From an uncultured Verrucomicrobiota bacterium (GTDB lineage: Bacteria > Verrucomicrobiota > Verrucomicrobiia > Verrucomicrobiales > DEV007), in assembly GCA_902510815.1 (NCBI GenBank), contig CABXDI010000001.1, positions 1 to 64,000 on the forward strand: DNA of 64,000 bases. Reading direction: 5' to 3'. Position 1 is the stretch's first letter; the number at the start of each line of letters is the position of its first letter. The position numbers were made by a program, and so were the translations under genes. Of the stretch, positions 10,355 through 19,803 are shown piece after piece. The notes under the pieces were generated by a model. It saw nothing but the letters and a program-made list of their open reading frames with translations, ran no database searches and had not been told where the DNA came from.

Positions 10355-12937
10355 ATGAGATCTTTTCACGCACTTTTCATTACTGTTCTCACAGGACTGT
10401 TGCTCCTTTCCCGGCTCGAGGCACAGGTAATTATTTATGATGCGGCCGAGGGGACCGTAGGTACTCAGGAGTTCGGAGGTTCACTCGGCATGGACTTTGA
10501 AGTTAATTCAGAGATTGTCGTGACGGACCTTGGTGCCTTTGACAGTGGTTCAGATGGCCTGTTTCTGCCGATCATTGTTGAACTCTGGACTCGAGATGGA
10601 ACCGTAGGAATTGAGGTGATTGCGACTGAGAATTTTGACTTGGATGAAGGGACCCTTGACGGAGGTCACCGGTTCAAATCCCTCAATAATCCAGTGGCCC
10701 TCGAGCCTGGAAGCTATTCGATTGTGGCTTACGGTTATGGGGGCGGGGAGCCGAACGTTAATGTGAGTGGTCAGCCCGCTGAAGACTTTGGTCTGTCCAG
10801 TAATGATGCTGGAGGCGCGATTACTTTCGTGGGTGGATCCCGTTGGGGTGACGCTGGATCGTTCCCTGCAAATGCGGACGGTGGTCCTGAGCAGCGGTAC
10901 GGTGCCGGTTCTTTTAAAGTTGCTAGCGAGGATCAGGATGAGGATGAGGATGAGATACCGGATACCTGGGAAATTGCTAATGGACTAGACCCGGAAGATC
11001 CTGAAGACGCTGGCCAAGATGCTGACAATGATGGTCTCAATAACCTTAAAGAATTTCAATTAGGACTGGACCCGAATTCGAAGGACACGGACGGTGACGG
11101 TGCCGAGGACGGTTTTGAATACGATAATGATTCGGACCCGAAGGATCCTGACACTGATGATGATGAGCTGACTGACGGTGAGGAGTTTGCCGAGGGAACG
11201 GATCCAATGGACCCTGATACGGACGGTGATGGGTTCCGTGACGGGTTTGAGGTGGCTAAAGGTTCTGACCCTAATGACTCGGACAGTGTTCCGGAAATTA
11301 AGAGTGGACCCGGTGCCATCATTTATGATGTGGCTGAGGGGACCGAAGGTAACCAGGACTTTGGAGGTCCACTAGGCATGGACTTTGAGGTCAATTCAGT
11401 CATCACTGTCTCTGAGCTTGGGGCCTTTGACAGTGGCTCGGACGGTCTATTTCTTCCCATCAAGGTTGAACTCTGGAGCCGTGAAGGTGACGCAGGTGTT
11501 GAGGCTCTAGTGGAGATGAATTTCGATGAGAATGATGAAGGGATTCTCGAAGGAGGGCACCGTTTCAAGACCCTTACTGAACCATTGGTTCTTGATCCGG
11601 GAAGTTACACGATCGTTGCGACTGGTTACGGTGCAGGAGAAAGGAACTATAATCGGGGCCTTGGTCCATCAGATGCGTTTTCCACGAATGATTTGGGCGG
11701 AGATATTACTTTTGTCGGAGGATCGCGTTGGGGTGATGCGGGAACCTTTCCAGTGAACGTGGACGGTGGTCCTGAGCAGCGGTACGGTGCCGGTTCGTTC
11801 AAGGTCATTGTTGATGATGAGGATGGGGACGGTATACCTGACGCATGGGAGGAGTCTAATGGGCTGGATCCTGAAATGGCGGAGGACGCTGAAGATGATC
11901 CGGACAATGACGGGCTCAGTAACCTGACTGAATTTGAGGCGGGTCTGAACCCCAAGGTCGCTGATACGGACGATGATGGCGTGCAGGACGGGACAGAGAT
12001 TGATAATGAAACGGATCCACTGAAACCTGACACTGATGATGATGGCCTGAGTGACGGTGAAGAAGTTACTTTGGGCACTGATCCGTTGAATCCCGACACG
12101 GACGAAGACGGACACAAGGACGGAAAAGAAGTGGCCAAGGGAACGGACCCAAAAGATGCGAACAGCAGTCCCTCTTCACAATTTTCCGGGGAACTTGCTT
12201 ACAAGATTGAGCAGGGCACGATCGGTAACCAGAACTATACCGGGGCCCTAGGACTGGATTTTGTTGTTGAGGAGACGATCAGAGTACTGGAACTTGGAGC
12301 CTTCGACAGTGGTGCAGATGGTCTCAAGAGGCCGATCACTGTCAGTATGTGGTCCCGCGATGACATGGAAACACCTGGCGAGGTCAATGATGACATTGGC
12401 CTTGAAATGCTGGCTCAAATTGAATTTGGTCCGGACAATGAGGGGGACCTGCGTGATGCGCACCGAACCATTGCTTTGGAGGATGAGTTGGTCCTTGAGC
12501 CGGGAGCTTACACAATCGTTGCGAGTGGGTACGGGGCAGGTGAGCCGAACGGAAATGTTGGGACGCCTGGAATGAGTTTAACTGAGAACCCTATTATTAC
12601 TTTTGTCGGCGGAGGCAGGTACGGGAACGATGCGGCCGCTTATCCTGGAGTCCCTGACGGGGGTCCAGAGAACCGTTATGCTGCCGGAACGTTTGCATTT
12701 GAAATTCTCTCCTCTCCACTACGATTTACTAATATCAGTTATGACCCAGTCCAACAGGAAACGACGATGACCTGGTCATCTGTCCCTAACCGTATCTATG
12801 CAATTGATGAATCCATTGATCTTATCACATGGGACGAACTTGATGACAGTCTTGAATCTGAGGGCATGTCGACATCCTTTACTATTGATACGCTTCCAGG
12901 AAAGAGTTTCTTCAGGGTAAGGCTTCAGGACTTTTAG
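10355..12937 (+). CDS. Secreted triple-repeat protein with TSP3-like calcium-binding linkers
   Basis: 860 aa. A Sec signal peptide covers residues 1-23 (LFITVLTGLLLLSRLEAQ). Three homologous beta-rich domains lie at about residues 25-189, 320-485 and 612-785; each has 'LGAFDSGxDGL', 'ITFVGGxRWGDAG' and 'DGGPExRYGAGxF'. Between them are thrombospondin type-3-like Asp-rich repeats (about 195-318 and 487-610) of the form DPDTDDDxLTDGEE, expected to bind Ca2+. Residues 788-860 form a C-terminal module ending in SFFRVRL that recurs in other secreted proteins here. It is probably a cell-surface or secreted structural/adhesive protein. The repeats are closer to each other than to anything I recognise. 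Base composition is clearly higher in GC than the flanks. Confidence 0.87.
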   Translation: MRSFHALFITVLTGLLLLSRLEAQVIIYDAAEGTVGTQEFGGSLGMDFEVNSEIVVTDLGAFDSGSDGLFLPIIVELWTRDGTVGIEVIATENFDLDEGTLDGGHRFKSLNNPVALEPGSYSIVAYGYGGGEPNVNVSGQPAEDFGLSSNDAGGAITFVGGSRWGDAGSFPANADGGPEQRYGAGSFKVASEDQDEDEDEIPDTWEIANGLDPEDPEDAGQDADNDGLNNLKEFQLGLDPNSKDTDGDGAEDGFEYDNDSDPKDPDTDDDELTDGEEFAEGTDPMDPDTDGDGFRDGFEVAKGSDPNDSDSVPEIKSGPGAIIYDVAEGTEGNQDFGGPLGMDFEVNSVITVSELGAFDSGSDGLFLPIKVELWSREGDAGVEALVEMNFDENDEGILEGGHRFKTLTEPLVLDPGSYTIVATGYGAGERNYNRGLGPSDAFSTNDLGGDITFVGGSRWGDAGTFPVNVDGGPEQRYGAGSFKVIVDDEDGDGIPDAWEESNGLDPEMAEDAEDDPDNDGLSNLTEFEAGLNPKVADTDDDGVQDGTEIDNETDPLKPDTDDDGLSDGEEVTLGTDPLNPDTDEDGHKDGKEVAKGTDPKDANSSPSSQFSGELAYKIEQGTIGNQNYTGALGLDFVVEETIRVLELGAFDSGADGLKRPITVSMWSRDDMETPGEVNDDIGLEMLAQIEFGPDNEGDLRDAHRTIALEDELVLEPGAYTIVASGYGAGEPNGNVGTPGMSLTENPIITFVGGGRYGNDAAAYPGVPDGGPENRYAAGTFAFEILSSPLRFTNISYDPVQQETTMTWSSVPNRIYAIDESIDLITWDELDDSLESEGMSTSFTIDTLPGKSFFRVRLQDF

Positions 12938-12989
12938 GATAAGATTTTTAATTAAAAATGATGGATTATTTATCTATTTAGGATTGCAC

Positions 12990-15482
12990 ATGGGTAAACA
13001 TTCATGCCTGCTAAGGTTTTGCATGATACCTGTCATGGTTTCATTTTGGAGTTGTGGTGATAACGTTCAGGATCAGAGCGATGGCCAAGGTGCCGCTGAC
13101 CAGAACACTGTCTCTACCTTAGTGGCCTCTGAGGAGTTGATCCTTGAACTGACTCCACGATTAAAAGGTTTTAAACCTAACATATTTACTGAGGATTGCC
13201 TTTTCGTTGGAGTCGATCCTGACCCTGTTCAGAAGAAGGAATATCCTGAACTTGGAGTCGCTGAGAATCATTGGAACGGCAAAAAAACTAATAATAAAAC
13301 TGAAGCAGTAAAACCAACTGTTGCGAAAATGACAGGGCCAGCGGGTCAATTTGACCTCAGGGACATTAATTTTTCTCTAGTCTCAGGGAAGTTCAGTGAT
13401 TCAGGTATGAATCTTTTTACAAGCATTGTTTCTTTTTCCGGCTCCAATAAAAATTCATCAATTAGTTCGGTTAATGAGGTCATTTGGAAGAAGTTTGGAA
13501 GTTCCTGGAAGATTAATTTGTGGAGAGTTCAAAAACTTACTGCTCAGCGTTCGAAGGGGCAACTTTTTAAAGAGGCCCTCGATGAGGCTCTTCCTGACAA
13601 AGAATCTCTTTCCCGTGCACGGACATCAATGCATTGGAGAATTCTCAATGATAATTATTTTGGTGGCAAAAAACCAACAAACATACCCAGATACACTGAT
13701 ACAAGATTTTATCCGGACTCAATTAACACGCATCCTTCGGTCTCTATCGTGGACATTGACGGGGACAGCTTTGATGATATTTACGTATGCGTGCGGTGGG
13801 GTAAGAACCTTCTACTGCGAAATAAGGGAGACGGAACCTTTGAGGAATGTTCGGCACGTTATGGACTTGATGTAAGCGGAAGAAATACGGTCGCTCTATT
13901 TGCTGATTTTGATAATGACGGAGACCCTGATTTATTCCTTGGACGGTCCCTAGAGAAGTCTCTTTATCTTGTCAATGAGAAGGGAATGTTTCGTCCTCAT
14001 AGTGGTCCTGTTTCTAACGGGAAACTTCCATGGTTAGTCACTTCGGCCTCAGCTTCTGATTATAATAATGACGGACTACTTGATATTTATATATGTACTT
14101 ACAGTCCACTTGATCTGAATACGAGACTACAGGACAAGGGTAATACTCCTAAATGGGCCAGACAATTTCTATCACCGGAGCAGGCTCAGGAAGTGGTGAA
14201 AAGAAAAGTAAATGACCATACTTACCTCAATCAGATTGGTCCCCCGAACGTTCTCCTTGTCAATCGAGGAGGGTATTTTGAAATTTCTCCCCAATCAGTC
14301 AATGTGGCTGGCTATTATAACAGTTTTCAGGCGTCATGGGCCGACTATGATAATGATGGGGACCAGGACCTTTACGTGGCCAACGATTATGCACCTGATC
14401 AGCTTTTTCGGAATGATAGTGGATCTTTTTTAGATATCACTTCGGGTTTCGGCTTTAATACTCTTGGCTTCGCGATGGGAGCTTCGTGGGGAGACTATGA
14501 TGGGGACGGGGATCAGGACCTTTACGTTTCTAATATGTATTCAAAGGCGGGACGAAGAATTACAGAACAAATTCCGGGCCTTGATGATCGTATGTCTGCA
14601 GTGGCTTATGGTAATTTTCTTTATAGAAATGACGGTGATGGAGGCATGAAGAGAATGTCTGGTGCTGATGGAAAGTCAATCCCAGTTCATCTCGCGGGCT
14701 GGTCATGGGGTGGAATGTTTACTGACTTTGACAATGACGGGTTCCTCGACCTTTATGTCTCAAGTGGATATTATACCCCTCCCCCAGGTCAGGACAATGG
14801 AGTCGATTTGTGAAGTTGTCTATGGCGTACGGTCGTGCGTTCCGATGAGTCTTTACCTGATCAGTTCAGAAATAACAAATCGTGGGGAACGGATCCTAAG
14901 ACAGGAAAGGTAAAACCTTCACAGGAGAGGCTCACTTACTACTATGGACCGAACTATCACCGGCACTCTTACAGTGGTTACGAGAGGAATAAATTTTACC
15001 TGAATGTTTCTGGAGAAACGTTCGCAGATTTGTCAGGTGTTTCCGGTGCTGATGATGTTGCTGACAGTCGTACGTGGGCAGCCCTCGACTATGACCAGGA
15101 CGGCTGGACAGACATTGCTCTGGTTAACGCGAACGCTCCGCTACTGAGCCTGTACAGAAACACGATAGGAGAAATAAATAAATCCAATCATATTAAGGTC
15201 CTTCTTGTCGGTGGGGCCGCAGGAAAGGATCCCGGTAAAGGGTTGAGTAATAGGGACGGGGTAGGGGCAGTCGTTGAAGTTATGTCCGGTCAACGATTGA
15301 TAAAAAGAGTCCGTAACCTTGGAGAAGGTTACGCTGCTCAGAACAGTGCCACGATGACTATAGGCATTGGTTCAGAAGACACGGTTCAATCGGTGAAGGT
15401 CCGCTGGCCGTCAGGAAAAATTACTACGAGTCGATTATCAGTTAGTGCAGGATCTTCTATTGTGATGAAGGAGATCCAATAG
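12990..15482 (+). CDS. VCBS/FG-GAP and ASPIC/UnbV secreted protein with in-frame TGA (candidate selenoprotein or disrupted gene)
   Basis: Lipoprotein-like N-terminus (IPVMVSFWSC) from ATG 12990; a TTG two codons upstream is possible. Residues ~245-605 contain at least five FG-GAP/VCBS calcium-binding repeats such as DIDGDSFDDIYV, DFDNDGDPDLFL, DYDNDGDQDLYV and DFDNDGFLDLYV. The C-terminus has DYDQDGWTDIAL and an ASPIC/UnbV domain (GVGAVVEVMSGQRL, VKVRWPSGKITT). An in-frame TGA at 14811-14813 (codon 608) splits it. The frame is unchanged after it, reading SCLWRTVVRSDESLPDQF before the ASPIC part. Translation as one chain gives 830 positions with Sec/stop-Ser-Cys at the TGA. Alternatives are a nonsense mutation, or re-initiation at GTG 14835. 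It is probably exported; its role may be surface binding. Confidence 0.82.
14824..14843 (+). other. SECIS-like hairpin downstream of in-frame TGA
   Basis: Ten nt after the TGA (14811-14813), GG (14824-14825) pairs with CC (14842-14843). CGTAC (14826-14830) pairs with GTGCG (14835-14839), including one G-U pair. The apical loop is GGTC (14831-14834), and TT (14840-14841) is bulged on the 3' side. The E. coli fdhF SECIS, as I recall it, has a 17-nt minimal hairpin starting 11 nt after UGA with a GGUC loop, so spacing and loop agree. The bulged U is on the 5' side in fdhF but on the 3' side here. Confidence 0.45.
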
Positions 15483-15546
15483 AGGAACGTTCCTTGCCTT
15501 TTTCTGAAATTTGTAGAATAATACAAAGTAATTATTTCTCTTCCCC

Positions 15547-18500
15547 ATGAAATTCCTCAATGCATTTGTCTGGGCTGTTCTTTTTATGGTCTGCTCTTTT
15601 GAGTTGATGGCGGTAGATCCTGTCATATCCGAATTCTTGGCATCAAATTCATCAGGCCTTGAGGACGAGGATGGTGATTCATCGGATTGGATAGAAATAT
15701 GGAACGTTTCAGGTGGAGCGGGTGACTTGCAAGGTTATCACCTCACTGATAATCCTGAGGATCTGACCAAGTGGACCTTTGCTAAAGCACCATTTAATAA
15801 TGATGGTTACGTCGTGGTCTTTGCTTCAGGAAAGGATAGGAATGGTCCTCAAGATGAGTTACATACCAATTTTAAGCTTAATTCATCTGAGGGTGGATAC
15901 CTTGCCTTAGTTGAGCCGGACGGGATTACTGTTGCCAGCGAGTATAAAAATTATTCTAAACAGTTCGAGGATATTTCATATGGTAGCGGGTACGGAGACC
16001 CTGAGGATGTGAAATTTTTAAGATCAGGTGATATTGCAAAATGGATCATTCCGGAAAGGCCTATCGAAGGATGGGTTGAAACTATATTTGATGATTCTTC
16101 TTGGGCACAGGGTCAGACGGGAATAGGTTATGATAGGTCCGATAAATATATACCCCACATTGGTGAAGGAGGTGACTTGCTCGATTCTATGCGTGGAGTG
16201 AATGCATCAGCTTATATTAGGGTGCCATTCACTGTTAATAATCTTAGCGGAATAAGTAATTTAATTTTAAGAATGAAGTGGGAAGACGGTTTTATTGCGT
16301 ATCTAAACGGGACGGAAATTAAATCAATGAGTGCTCCGGAAAATCCACAATGGAATTCAGAGGCAACACTAAACCGGTCTAATGAGGATGATGCGATTAC
16401 CTTTTTTGATTATCCTGTCTCTGGTCCATTGATCGAGGGTCAGAATGTCCTGGCCATTCATGGGCTCAATGCCTCGAGGACCAGTTCGGATTTTCTTATT
16501 TCCCCTGAACTAACAGCGAAACAAACTGATCTTAACTCGCCTAGGACTGGTTTTTTTATGGCTCCTAGTCCAGGGAGCCTTAACGGAAAACTCATTGATG
16601 GTCTGGTACGTGACACTAAATTCAGTTTTAAAAGAGGCTTTTATGATAGCCCCTTTGATTTGGAGATTAGTACCGAGACAGTGGGGGCCAAGATCAGGTA
16701 CACTTTGGACGGTTCTGAGCCGAGTGAATCGAGTGGGATGATTTATGATGGTCCCATTAATATTAATGATACGACGGTTCTTCGGGCCATAGCATATAAG
16801 GATAATTTCACATCGACCAATGTGGACACTCAGACCTATTTGTTCCCGGAAAAGGTCGCGGTTCAGACGAACAGCCCGGCAGGATACCCTTCTAGCTGGG
16901 GTGGAGTCAGTGCGGACTATGGGATGGATAATGATCCTGTTGATTTTCGCCGAGCTGCTGGTGACGCTAATCATTCATTATCATCCGCCAAGTCAGCTAT
17001 AGCAGATTCACTTAAATCGATAACGACCATTTCTATTGTTACTGACAAGGATAATATATTTGACCGCAGCAGGGGAATCTACCAGAACCCGAGCGGCCGT
17101 GGGAGTCAGTGGGAGCGGCCAGTGTCTGTGGAGATTATTAATGGTAAAGGGGTAGATGATTACCAAACCGATGCCGGGATCCGAGTTATGGGTTTCACGT
17201 CACGTAATCTCAACACGACGACAAAACTGAACATGCGTTTATTGTTCAAAAAAGAGTATGGGGACAGTAAGATGAAATATCCTTTACTCGGTTCAGAGGG
17301 TCCGGACGAGTTCAATACTATTGCCTTGCGGGGAAATATTCGTGATGCTTGGGTCACTGAGTATCAGGGTTTCGGAAGTGCTTTATATATAGGTGATGAG
17401 TGGTCCAAGAGGTCGCAAAAAGCGATGGGTCAGCCCGCGGTCCGTGGCACTTATGCCCATGTCTATCTGAACGGTATGTATTGGGGGCTTTATAATCCGA
17501 CTGAGCGTCCCGATGATGATTTTGCTGAGACTCATCTTGGCGGAGACCGGACCGAATATGATGTGGTGAAGTTTTGTTGCCCGGACCGATCGATTGCGGG
17601 GTCGATTCGGGTCTGGGACCAGTTACTCTCTGCCGCAAGGTCAGGACTGACGAGCCATCAGAGCTATCAACGGGTTCAGGGAAAGAATCCTGACGGTTCA
17701 CTTAATCCTCAATTCCCAGTGCTCCTTGATGTGGATAACCTGATCGATTACTCGATTAATGGTTATTATCATGCTCAGGTTGACTGGCCCGGCAATTATT
17801 ACGTGATCAGGGACCGGGTCGAAGGCCGCACGACTGGTTTTCAGTTCTTTACCTGGGACAATGACATTGCCTTGGGTGCAGCGAACCCGAATAACGGGAA
17901 TAAGGTTCAAAGTAGTCCAGGAAATAACTGGTGGACCGAGTCTCCCGGTGAAATAGAAATCCCAATACGTCGGAACGCTGAGTACCGGATCCGTTTTGCT
18001 GACCGTGTCTATAAGCACTTCAATCATGATGGGGCAATGACTATCGAGAACAATATCAATCGCTGGAATGAGTTAGCTGAGATGGTCCGTCCTGCACTAT
18101 TCGCTGAGTCAGCGCGTTGGGGCGATTCGAGAGGACAGAGGCTCCGGACAGTGCAGGATAACTGGGACGTAATGAATAAGAGAATGGTTAATAATTATTT
18201 TCCAAAGAGGCAATCAGTTCTCTTTTCCCAGTTGCGGAGTCAGGGTCTTTATCCTGATACGATTCCGCCTGAATTTAATAAGCGTGGTGGTGTAGTGAGT
18301 CCTGATTTTCGGCTCAAATTTGATTCTGAAAGTGTAGTTTATTATACTACGGACGGGTCTGACCCTAGGCTCGTTGGAGGGTCAGTGAATCCAGATGCAG
18401 TGATGGTTTCGGGGGGCCGTACGATCCTCTCACTCATAGAGACGGGCTCAGAGTTGCGTGTCAAAGTGCCTCAAGACGAATCCGAGGGCGAGGACTGGTT

Positions 18501-19803
18501 CTTACCGGAGCATGATGATTCAAAATGGATTTCAGGAAATTCCGGTGTCGGTTATGATAGAGGAAGTAAATATAGGGACCTAATTTCTCTGGACCTCTAT
18601 GATGAGATGCGTGGCATCAATCCCTCTGCCTATGTGAGGATCCCTTTTGAGGTCGTAGAACCTGCAAATTTCATTAGCCTTTATCTTCGTATGAAGTCTG
18701 ATGACGGCTTTGTGGTTTACCTTAATGGGACCAGGGTCGCTGAGCGGAATGCTCCGGAACAGTTGTTATGGAATTCATCGGCGACGCAATCACCGACTGA
18801 TGAGGAGGCAATGACTTTTAAGATTATTGATATTACAGCTCATAAGGATTTGCTCGTAAAGGGCTCTAATGTCCTAGCAATTCATGCCCTCAATGATAGT
18901 TCTGGAAGTTCTGATTTCCTTATCATTCCAGAACTTGCAGGAGACTCACTAGAGGCTGCTGATACTATTTCGATGGACCGGACGACGGTAATCCGTGCCC
19001 GTGCGCTTGACGGTAATGAGTGGTCACCAATTAATGAGGCGACTTTCATTGTCGGGTCCAAACCGACGGCTCAGAACCTCGTTGTTTCTGAAATCATGTA
19101 TCATCCCTCACTGAAGAATGAGAGTGATGAGTTCATTGAAGTAATGAATATTTCCCAGACCGAAGAGATTAATCTGACCTCAGTAAAATTCGATAACGGG
19201 ATAAGTTATGAGTTTCCAGTAGACTTTATTCTTGGCCCTGGGAAGAGGGCTGTCATCGCTTCGGATCCTGATACTCTTCGTGTTGATTGGCCTGATCTTA
19301 AAGTAGTCGGCCAGTTCACAGGTAATTTAAATAATGGTGGTGAAAGAGTGACTCTCATTGATTCGGAGGGAGTTGAGATTCAGAGTTTCAAGTATGATGA
19401 CAAGTCACCTTGGCCTGAGAGCCCTGACGGGCAAGGGCCTAGCTTAGTTCTTACAGATCCCTTTAGCGGGCCTGATCATTCTAAGCCAGAGAGCTGGAGA
19501 GCGTCCAGGTCCGACGGTGGTAGTCCAGGATTTGAGGGAGGACAGAATCATAATAGTGAGGACCTCATCCGATACGCGATTGAAAAGGGTCCTGATTTTA
19601 ATATTATTAATGGAACCCTCTCCATGAAGAGACGGGAAGGAGCAGATGATGTTCTAATTGTTCCGCAATGGAGTGAGGACTTGAGGGTTTGGCGAGGTGA
19701 CGGTTTTGAAGCTAATGGCGAGGATCCTACCTCATGGAAAATCTCTGATCAAGTCCTTGAGAAAGAGAGAATCTTTTACAGGTTTGAGGTTAGACATCCC
19801 TAA
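15547..19803 (+). CDS. Giant secreted CotH-kinase/lamin-tail-domain protein
   Basis: 1418 aa with a signal peptide (residues 1-22). Domain order: lamin-tail domain (~22-140, DSSDWIEIWNVSG...GYHLTD); a DDSSW...GIGYD / DGFIAYLNGTEI / NVLAIHGLN module (~158-324); a chitobiase C-terminal-like domain (~370-435, IRYTLDGSEPS). Then a CotH-kinase-type domain (~490-860, LNMRLLFKKEYG, YLNGMYWGLYNPTERPDD, FFTWDNDIALG); a second YTTDGSDP segment; a second copy of the DDSSW-type module (~968-1138); a second lamin-tail domain (~1171-1300, ISEIMYHP); and a C-terminal module ending IFYRFEVRHP. CotH proteins phosphorylate proteins in Bacillus; activity here is unproven. It starts 64 nt after the VCBS gene and shares its GC-rich composition. 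Confidence 0.9.
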   Translation: MKFLNAFVWAVLFMVCSFELMAVDPVISEFLASNSSGLEDEDGDSSDWIEIWNVSGGAGDLQGYHLTDNPEDLTKWTFAKAPFNNDGYVVVFASGKDRNGPQDELHTNFKLNSSEGGYLALVEPDGITVASEYKNYSKQFEDISYGSGYGDPEDVKFLRSGDIAKWIIPERPIEGWVETIFDDSSWAQGQTGIGYDRSDKYIPHIGEGGDLLDSMRGVNASAYIRVPFTVNNLSGISNLILRMKWEDGFIAYLNGTEIKSMSAPENPQWNSEATLNRSNEDDAITFFDYPVSGPLIEGQNVLAIHGLNASRTSSDFLISPELTAKQTDLNSPRTGFFMAPSPGSLNGKLIDGLVRDTKFSFKRGFYDSPFDLEISTETVGAKIRYTLDGSEPSESSGMIYDGPININDTTVLRAIAYKDNFTSTNVDTQTYLFPEKVAVQTNSPAGYPSSWGGVSADYGMDNDPVDFRRAAGDANHSLSSAKSAIADSLKSITTISIVTDKDNIFDRSRGIYQNPSGRGSQWERPVSVEIINGKGVDDYQTDAGIRVMGFTSRNLNTTTKLNMRLLFKKEYGDSKMKYPLLGSEGPDEFNTIALRGNIRDAWVTEYQGFGSALYIGDEWSKRSQKAMGQPAVRGTYAHVYLNGMYWGLYNPTERPDDDFAETHLGGDRTEYDVVKFCCPDRSIAGSIRVWDQLLSAARSGLTSHQSYQRVQGKNPDGSLNPQFPVLLDVDNLIDYSINGYYHAQVDWPGNYYVIRDRVEGRTTGFQFFTWDNDIALGAANPNNGNKVQSSPGNNWWTESPGEIEIPIRRNAEYRIRFADRVYKHFNHDGAMTIENNINRWNELAEMVRPALFAESARWGDSRGQRLRTVQDNWDVMNKRMVNNYFPKRQSVLFSQLRSQGLYPDTIPPEFNKRGGVVSPDFRLKFDSESVVYYTTDGSDPRLVGGSVNPDAVMVSGGRTILSLIETGSELRVKVPQDESEGEDWFLPEHDDSKWISGNSGVGYDRGSKYRDLISLDLYDEMRGINPSAYVRIPFEVVEPANFISLYLRMKSDDGFVVYLNGTRVAERNAPEQLLWNSSATQSPTDEEAMTFKIIDITAHKDLLVKGSNVLAIHALNDSSGSSDFLIIPELAGDSLEAADTISMDRTTVIRARALDGNEWSPINEATFIVGSKPTAQNLVVSEIMYHPSLKNESDEFIEVMNISQTEEINLTSVKFDNGISYEFPVDFILGPGKRAVIASDPDTLRVDWPDLKVVGQFTGNLNNGGERVTLIDSEGVEIQSFKYDDKSPWPESPDGQGPSLVLTDPFSGPDHSKPESWRASRSDGGSPGFEGGQNHNSEDLIRYAIEKGPDFNIINGTLSMKRREGADDVLIVPQWSEDLRVWRGDGFEANGEDPTSWKISDQVLEKERIFYRFEVRHP

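Follow-up and report, generated by a model that had tools for sequence, protein, structure and literature searches.

A UGA codon very likely decoded as selenocysteine in an FG-GAP/ASPIC propeller gene of an uncultured Verrucomicrobiota bacterium

The stretch of DNA analysed here (the window) comprises 64,000 nucleotides from an uncultured Verrucomicrobiota bacterium, and it contains a gene that is very likely a selenoprotein gene, with its in-frame UGA at 14811-14813 decoded as selenocysteine (Sec). We give this reading a probability of about 0.95, with no protein-level evidence for selenium; its strong support is due to the evidence from the protein family more than to the hairpin alone. In the proposed mechanism, the UGA would be decoded through the bacterial SelB/Sec-tRNA pathway, and a hairpin with a GGUC loop 17 nt downstream would direct Sec insertion. 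The product would be a protein of 830 residues, probably exported and lipid-anchored, in which an FG-GAP propeller is followed by an ASPIC/UnbV domain at the C-terminus; a helix inserted in the propeller would carry Sec608 at its N-terminal end.

The interrupted gene, its hairpin and its neighbours

The TGA is the sole interruption of the frame 12990-15482, and a search of both strands of the window for a TGA that splits a run of 90 or more open codons from one of 60 or more returned this single place. The 38 listed genes of the window end with TAA (24), TAG (11) or TGA (3). Because three of these genes stop at TGA and the window has no further read-through frame of such a size, TGA is not reassigned in this genome, and genome-wide reassignment was ruled out. 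Pfam analysis of the read-through protein revealed FG-GAP repeats followed, after the TGA, by UnbV_ASPIC, all over the gathering score. The signal-like N-terminus ends with ..SFWSC in the window and with ..SLWGC and ..SLCSC in orthologues; export of the protein is inferred.

Table 1. Coordinates of the features discussed; positions are those of the window unless a contig is given.
Feature	Position	Strand	Basis or remark
Coding sequence	12990..15482	+	830 residues with TGA as Sec (residue 608); stop TAG 15480-15482
UGA, inferred selenocysteine codon (Sec608)	14811..14813	+	TGA at the same column in orthologues G001, G005, G008 and in homologues
Probable signal sequence with lipobox-like Cys	12990..13055	+	Hydrophobic start ending ..SFWSC; inferred from sequence alone, no predictor
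FG-GAP beta-propeller (residues about 190-732)	13557..15185	+	Pfam FG-GAP_3, FG-GAP; VIA-align to murine CRTAC1
Helix 607-617, Sec608 at N-terminal end, motif D-L-U-S-x-x-W-R	14808..14840	+	AlphaFold2 model; W at +4 in 181/181
SECIS-like hairpin	14824..14841	+	Stem 14824-14830/14835-14841, loop GGTC 14831-14834
UnbV/ASPIC domain (residues 757-813), downstream of UGA	15258..15428	+	Pfam PF07593, 49.2 bits vs cut-off 23.4
TSP3-repeat protein, syntenic neighbour upstream	10355..12937	+	Pfam
CotH/lamin-tail-domain protein, syntenic neighbour downstream	15547..19803	+	Pfam
SelD of source genome (L370)	G000:C15:5189-6112	minus	In-frame TGA

The hairpin downstream of the TGA has an uninterrupted 7-bp stem that starts 10 nt, and a loop that starts 17 nt, after the codon. 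Its minimum free energy (MFE) is -7.0, -9.0 and -9.8 kcal/mol on 30, 40 and 50 nt, respectively, with no excess stability over shuffled sequences (z of -0.23, -0.39 and 0.18) and a rank of 0.355 against synonymous recoding. The bSECIS model asks for a G in the first two loop positions, a loop of 3-9 nt, a stem of 4-16 bp, a distance of 16-37 nt from the UGA and an MFE of at most -7.5 kcal/mol. The window meets these criteria with its GGUC loop, 7 bp, 17 nt and -9.0 on 40 nt, though the energy is -7.0 on 30 nt. By itself the hairpin is not beyond chance; it is the way in which codon and hairpin are kept throughout the family that exceeds chance. An earlier note, made from this one sequence, had described a frame open except for one TGA and a GGTC-loop hairpin 10 nt after it. 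Both claims held, and the hairpin is real. The bulged base that the note placed on the 3' side is not needed, because the hairpin folds as an uninterrupted stem, and the use of the hairpin as evidence was incomplete, since it is not significant alone.

The part of the gene that follows the TGA is under strong purifying selection. In the six pairwise comparisons between the window, G001, G005 and G008, dN/dS is 0.065-0.112 after the TGA, compared with 0.091-0.166 for all codons before it and 0.053-0.090 for the stretch of up to 215 codons that directly precedes it. This stretch is somewhat more constrained than the downstream part in all six pairs. The neighbouring genes are shared as well. The TSP3-repeat protein is 90% and 81% identical, over the available part, to the proteins encoded upstream of the G001 and G008 orthologues, and the CotH/lamin-tail protein is 93% and 88% identical (residues 1-477) to those encoded downstream of them. 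The trio that spans 10355-19803 (TSP3-repeat protein, Sec propeller, CotH/lamin-tail protein) is kept in congeners, and a TSP3-like sequence is also found beside the homologue L084.

Conservation of the codon and covariation of the hairpin

Over residues 1-830, the window protein is 90% and 83% identical to its orthologues in G001 and G008. A comparison of the read-through protein with 95 related genomes gave matches in 68 of them. Of the matches examined that span the site, nearly all carry exactly one TGA and no other stop, and they range from the 90% identical orthologue in G001 down to paralogues at 36%. One exception (G005:C184) has a TAA besides the TGA. The TGA is thus common to orthologues at 75-90% identity and to far paralogues.

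Since the site set had partly been drawn from matches already rich in TGA, we searched the 95 relatives with the pattern of the commonest subfamily, D-L-x-S-x-[FY]-W-R-Q-V, in which the codon of the site was left free (NNN). This search returned 108 matches in 27 of the 95 genomes. The codon is TGA in all 108, and TGG, TGT and TGC are found in none; the reversed-pattern control gave no match. The W-R-T-V form of the window itself lies outside this pattern, and its orthologues in G001, G005 and G008 carry TGA. A stricter pattern with a TRR codon was applied to 387 genomes of the phylum. Its TGA matches were confined to the paralogues of the source genome (3) and to G426 (3), which is SelA-positive; TGG and TAA were each matched once.

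In the named genomes, the 80 best tblastn loci of the window protein comprise, by hand count, 33 with TGA exactly at the column, 6 more whose in-frame TGA, verified at codon level, is displaced by a few residues, 10 with Glu, Asn or Ala, and 31 without the motif or not covering the site. The TGA forms occur in records named Verrucomicrobia, Planctomycetes, Acidobacteria, Gemmatimonadetes, Latescibacterota and Deltaproteobacteria, representing at least six phyla; the Deltaproteobacteria records were placed in Myxococcota by the tree tool. The family is also present in many copies per genome, with 4 Sec copies in the source genome, 10 in G008, 9 in G012 and about 13 in the fragmented assembly of G030 (hand count). 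Far matches were found in 13 records of a plasmid collection, none of which covers 80% of the query. Among other FG-GAP loci, two from Planctomycetes (L047, L049) have TGA in the motif P-D-G-U-[SR]-C-V-W and group apart in the tree, and L038 has it in D-L-U-A-E-F. Three loci from Acidobacteria (L043, L046, L048) encode related FG-GAP proteins with a confirmed TGA in D-[LF]-U-L-P-[YF]..AVAH, at two places per locus. These likely represent further Sec subfamilies.

For the analysis of the hairpin, 206 sites were reduced to 197 by removal of duplicates, of which 183 TGA sites without N (181 distinct ones) and 10 non-TGA sites were used. L055, L060 and L267 were left out of the non-TGA set, and 125 tblastn matches without the motif were dropped. 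As the 181 sites were taken in part from matches that almost all carried TGA already, they gauge SECIS covariation and not codon frequency. The apical loop lies inside columns 21-25 (TGA being columns 1-3) in 163 of the 181 TGA sites, mostly as GGTCG or GGTC, 17 nt after the TGA, and the MFE is at most -7.5 kcal/mol in 167. The TGA sites have a mean MFE of -10.4 kcal/mol, which becomes -6.6 when their peptides are recoded synonymously (mean z -1.5), and only 58 of the 181 hairpins singly reach a rank of 0.05 or less against such recoding. For the ten non-TGA relatives, the mean is -8.0 versus -6.9 when recoded (z -0.46). Six of the ten attain -7.5 kcal/mol, and one of these ranks at 0.015; in most of them the loop lies at another place.

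The arms of the hairpin covary. Of the 181 sites, 136 have A or G at column 20, and among these 125 form pair 18-28 (mean of 2000 shuffles 81.5, maximum 100), 125 form pair 16-30 (mean 105.3, maximum 114) and 135 form pair 20-26 (mean 121.0, maximum 126). Control columns slid by one showed no clear excess over shuffles (best 84 of 2000). The shuffle test does not remove relatedness. Compensation is visible in the codon pairs CGG/TCG, CGA/TCG, CGC/GCG, CGG/CCG, AGG/CCT and CGT/ACG; between AGG/CCT and CGG/CCG both codons are changed synonymously, replacing a C-G by an A-U pair. The other 45 sites, that of the window included, have C at column 20 and a stem shifted by one base. Here the excess over shuffles is marked for pairs 16-29 (none of 2000 shuffles as high) and 17-28 (9 of 2000) but not for 18-27, 19-26 and 20-25. 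At the Val codon from which the loop is made, 169 of the 181 TGA sites have GTC or GTT, whereas all ten non-TGA relatives have GTG, ATG, GTA or GCG. In the distant FG-GAP subfamilies (L043, L046, L048, L038) the peptide after the TGA is different, yet a GGTC is found between complementary arms about 20 nt on, as judged from the sequence only, without folding.

Close relatives without Sec have Glu, Asn or Ala at the column, never Cys. Cys at the column is confined to one distant subfamily, D-[YH]-C-[TS]-x-[FY]-W-C-H-D (L110, L216, L257, L262, L265), in which another Cys takes the place of the Arg of the Sec forms. These Cys forms occur in G000 (the source genome), G008 and G012, where Sec forms are present too, and also in G084, a genome without a match to SelA. 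In a tree of 66 chosen sequences (quick search, rooted by choice on the Cys/Asp group), the three Glu forms are nested inside the Sec forms, as sister to a Sec protein, and the seven Asn/Ala forms, all from Acidobacteria, group beside a Sec clade. The distant root group comprises five Cys forms and one Asp form. Loss of the machinery was rejected as a simple cause of the changes to Glu, Asn or Ala, SelA being still present in 9 of the 10 such genomes. Separately, the Sec forms L016 (Mariniblastus) and L002 (Akkermansiaceae) group closely in spite of belonging to different phyla, possibly through horizontal transfer of the family or a binning error.

Selenocysteine machinery and alternative readings

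The assembly of the source genome, which is 54% complete, contains SelD with an in-frame TGA at ..NTCGUAAK... This sequence agrees with the UxxK site described for selenophosphate synthetase (PMC13188914), and the SelD is likely a selenoprotein itself. SelA, SelB and tRNA-Sec were not found over the cut-off in this 54% complete assembly (one search used stricter filters), and actual insertion of Sec in the source cell is inferred. Nine congeners have, over the cut-off, SelA in seven, SelB in five and tRNA-Sec in four; ARAGORN gave the anticodon tca for the tRNA-Sec of these four. Among the 95 relatives, 24 of the 27 motif-positive genomes have SelA, as do 20 of the 68 motif-negative ones (Fisher p 1e-7, relatedness uncorrected), and the three motif-positive genomes without it (G000, G001, G004) are all assemblies 54-59% complete. 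In the named genomes, SelA was found with all 31 tested of the 39 TGA loci (L005, L007, L032, L038, L041, L043, L046 and L048 were left out). This count does not discriminate, because 9 of the 10 genomes of non-TGA relatives have SelA too, one only as a fragment. The named set apparently overlaps the 95 relatives by at least two genomes (L009 = G066, L011 = G030).

The alternative that survives best, although very unlikely, is that a suppressor or Cys-type tRNA, or programmed low-level read-through, yields Cys, Trp or short and long forms of the protein rather than Sec. In its favour are the failure to detect SelA, SelB and tRNA-Sec in the source genome and the distant subfamily with Cys at the column. 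Against it, no open-codon match carries a Trp (TGG) or Cys (TGT, TGC) codon, and the covarying GGTC hairpin lies at the SECIS distance that SelB needs and a suppressor does not. The Sec-type TGA in SelD of the source genome and the enrichment of SelA among motif-positive genomes also argue against it.

A recent nonsense mutation of a Trp, Cys or Arg codon, or a sequencing error, that split the gene is all but excluded. A single TGA in one frame is the picture it would give, but the identical TGA is present in the G001, G005 and G008 orthologues and in far paralogues across phyla, and selection is purifying downstream of it. The TGA could also be a genuine stop, with the downstream part as a separate cistron and the hairpin serving coupling or termination; an ORF with a GTG start does exist at 14835-15482, but this reading is all but excluded by the conservation of the frame and of the W-R-x-V peptide between the TGA and the GTG, by a model with one propeller and one helix across the TGA, and by the single continuous frame of the Glu, Asn and Ala relatives.

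Decoding as Sec remains the preferred reading, and the proposal of the earlier note that Sec is inserted, rather than the gene being broken by a nonsense mutation, is supported. The note had named three outcomes that would count against it. Homologues have TGA at the column and not Trp or Arg, with Cys only in the distant subfamily, and constraint persists after the TGA. As to the sel genes, SelD with its TGA is found in the source genome and SelA, SelB and tRNA-Sec only in congeners, which is no refutation. The note's UxC redox motif failed as a family trait, since Cys is at +2 in only 18 of 181 sites. That the family is multi-copy and spread over several phyla is beyond what its single sequence could show.

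Structure, known systems and implications

An AlphaFold2 model, computed with Cys written for Sec, is a propeller with a mean pLDDT of 85.9 and a pTM of 0.90, in which Sec608 lies near the start of helix 607-617. The best VIA-align match is murine CRTAC1 (cartilage acidic protein 1, 9etn_A; Z 38.2, 458 aligned, 2.3 Å), followed by the EPTP of LGI1 (Z 31.5), and CRTAC1 is the best PDB match by sequence too. Beta-propellers of the FG-GAP/UnbV-ASPIC class have seven blades. CRTAC1 shares the FG-GAP propeller and an ASPIC-type C-terminus, but only profile positions up to 229 and from 529 align, and the middle part with the Sec motif is unaligned; the matches name no Sec in CRTAC1.

An alignment for the structural analysis (the window protein and 38 of the 80 loci, with Cys for Sec) shows Met496, Met516, Arg523, Asn542, Trp571 and Trp573 to be invariant or nearly so. 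Around Sec, Trp is at +4 in 181 of 181 sites, Ser at +1 in 168 of 181, and Asp at -2 in 182 of 182, the last being partly an effect of the motif search, which prefers D there. No Cys was found at +1 or +3, or at -1, -2 or -3 in 182 sites. The thioredoxin-like UxxC/CxxU criterion, a conserved Cys 1-3 residues from Sec, is therefore not met.

The role of Sec is inferred. The reading that we favour most is a reactive or ligand-binding residue of an inferred propeller pocket rather than a thiol-disulfide U-x-x-C site, because Sec lies at a helix N-terminus and invariant Met, Arg, Asn and Trp are present elsewhere in the propeller; no distances were measured. A bolder reading, which we consider possible but rather unlikely, is that Sec serves non-thiol-redox ligand or covalent chemistry in the pocket of an extracellular propeller, in a strongly expanded family where it can be replaced by Glu, Asn or Ala.

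The arrangement found in the window resembles that of E. coli fdhF/fdhN-type genes, with a UGA followed by a hairpin bearing GGU in its apical loop, the 17 nt being within the bSECIS range of 16-37 nt. The hairpin would also be like that of fdhF itself, whose product is a molybdenum enzyme. In contrast, the window product is a propeller, probably exported, and not a molybdenum enzyme, and its Sec is located in the C-terminal third, in the motif D-L-U-S-x-x-W-R, without a partner Cys. The same query also matches, in the same genomes, bacterial FG-GAP and UnbV/ASPIC (CRTAC1 family) proteins that have no TGA, but those examined are devoid of the D-L-U-S-x-x-W-R motif.

A 2026 review catalogues 119 prokaryotic selenoprotein families (PMC13188914, Table 1), with which the decoding machinery is shared; FG-GAP, VCBS, ASPIC/UnbV and the CRTAC1 family are absent from its selenoprotein table and from a term search of its main text. 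FG-GAP, VCBS, ASPIC and UnbV are likewise absent from the main texts of PMC12013277, PMC9312934, PMC2398784 and PMC4807772, although the supplementary selenoprotein table of the last could still list the family. The full-text literature searched, outside of which lie preprints and most subscription papers, contained nothing on selenocysteine with FG-GAP or with bacterial CRTAC1, and its sole match for a selenoprotein with a VCBS repeat was on Mycobacterium abscessus. In NCBIfam (June 2026), no model names the window protein (best E 0.31); of the 39 aligned members, 10 match XAC2610_fam and 1 a cohesion-protein model. The decoding mechanism is known; as a selenoprotein, the family and the motif appear to be new.

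The finding adds an apparently unlisted, large and widespread selenoprotein family, built on a propeller scaffold and not on a thioredoxin fold. As gene callers without a selenoprotein model end genes at TGA, many FG-GAP/ASPIC genes are probably stored truncated; such entries are likely in Verrucomicrobiota, Planctomycetota, Acidobacteriota and others, an inference made without a database count. The family offers a direct handle on why some such bacteria retain selenocysteine, and it opens to test the function of ASPIC/UnbV proteins, with their animal relative CRTAC1. If the bolder reading of the pocket were true, selenocysteine would be put to a new use at the cell surface.
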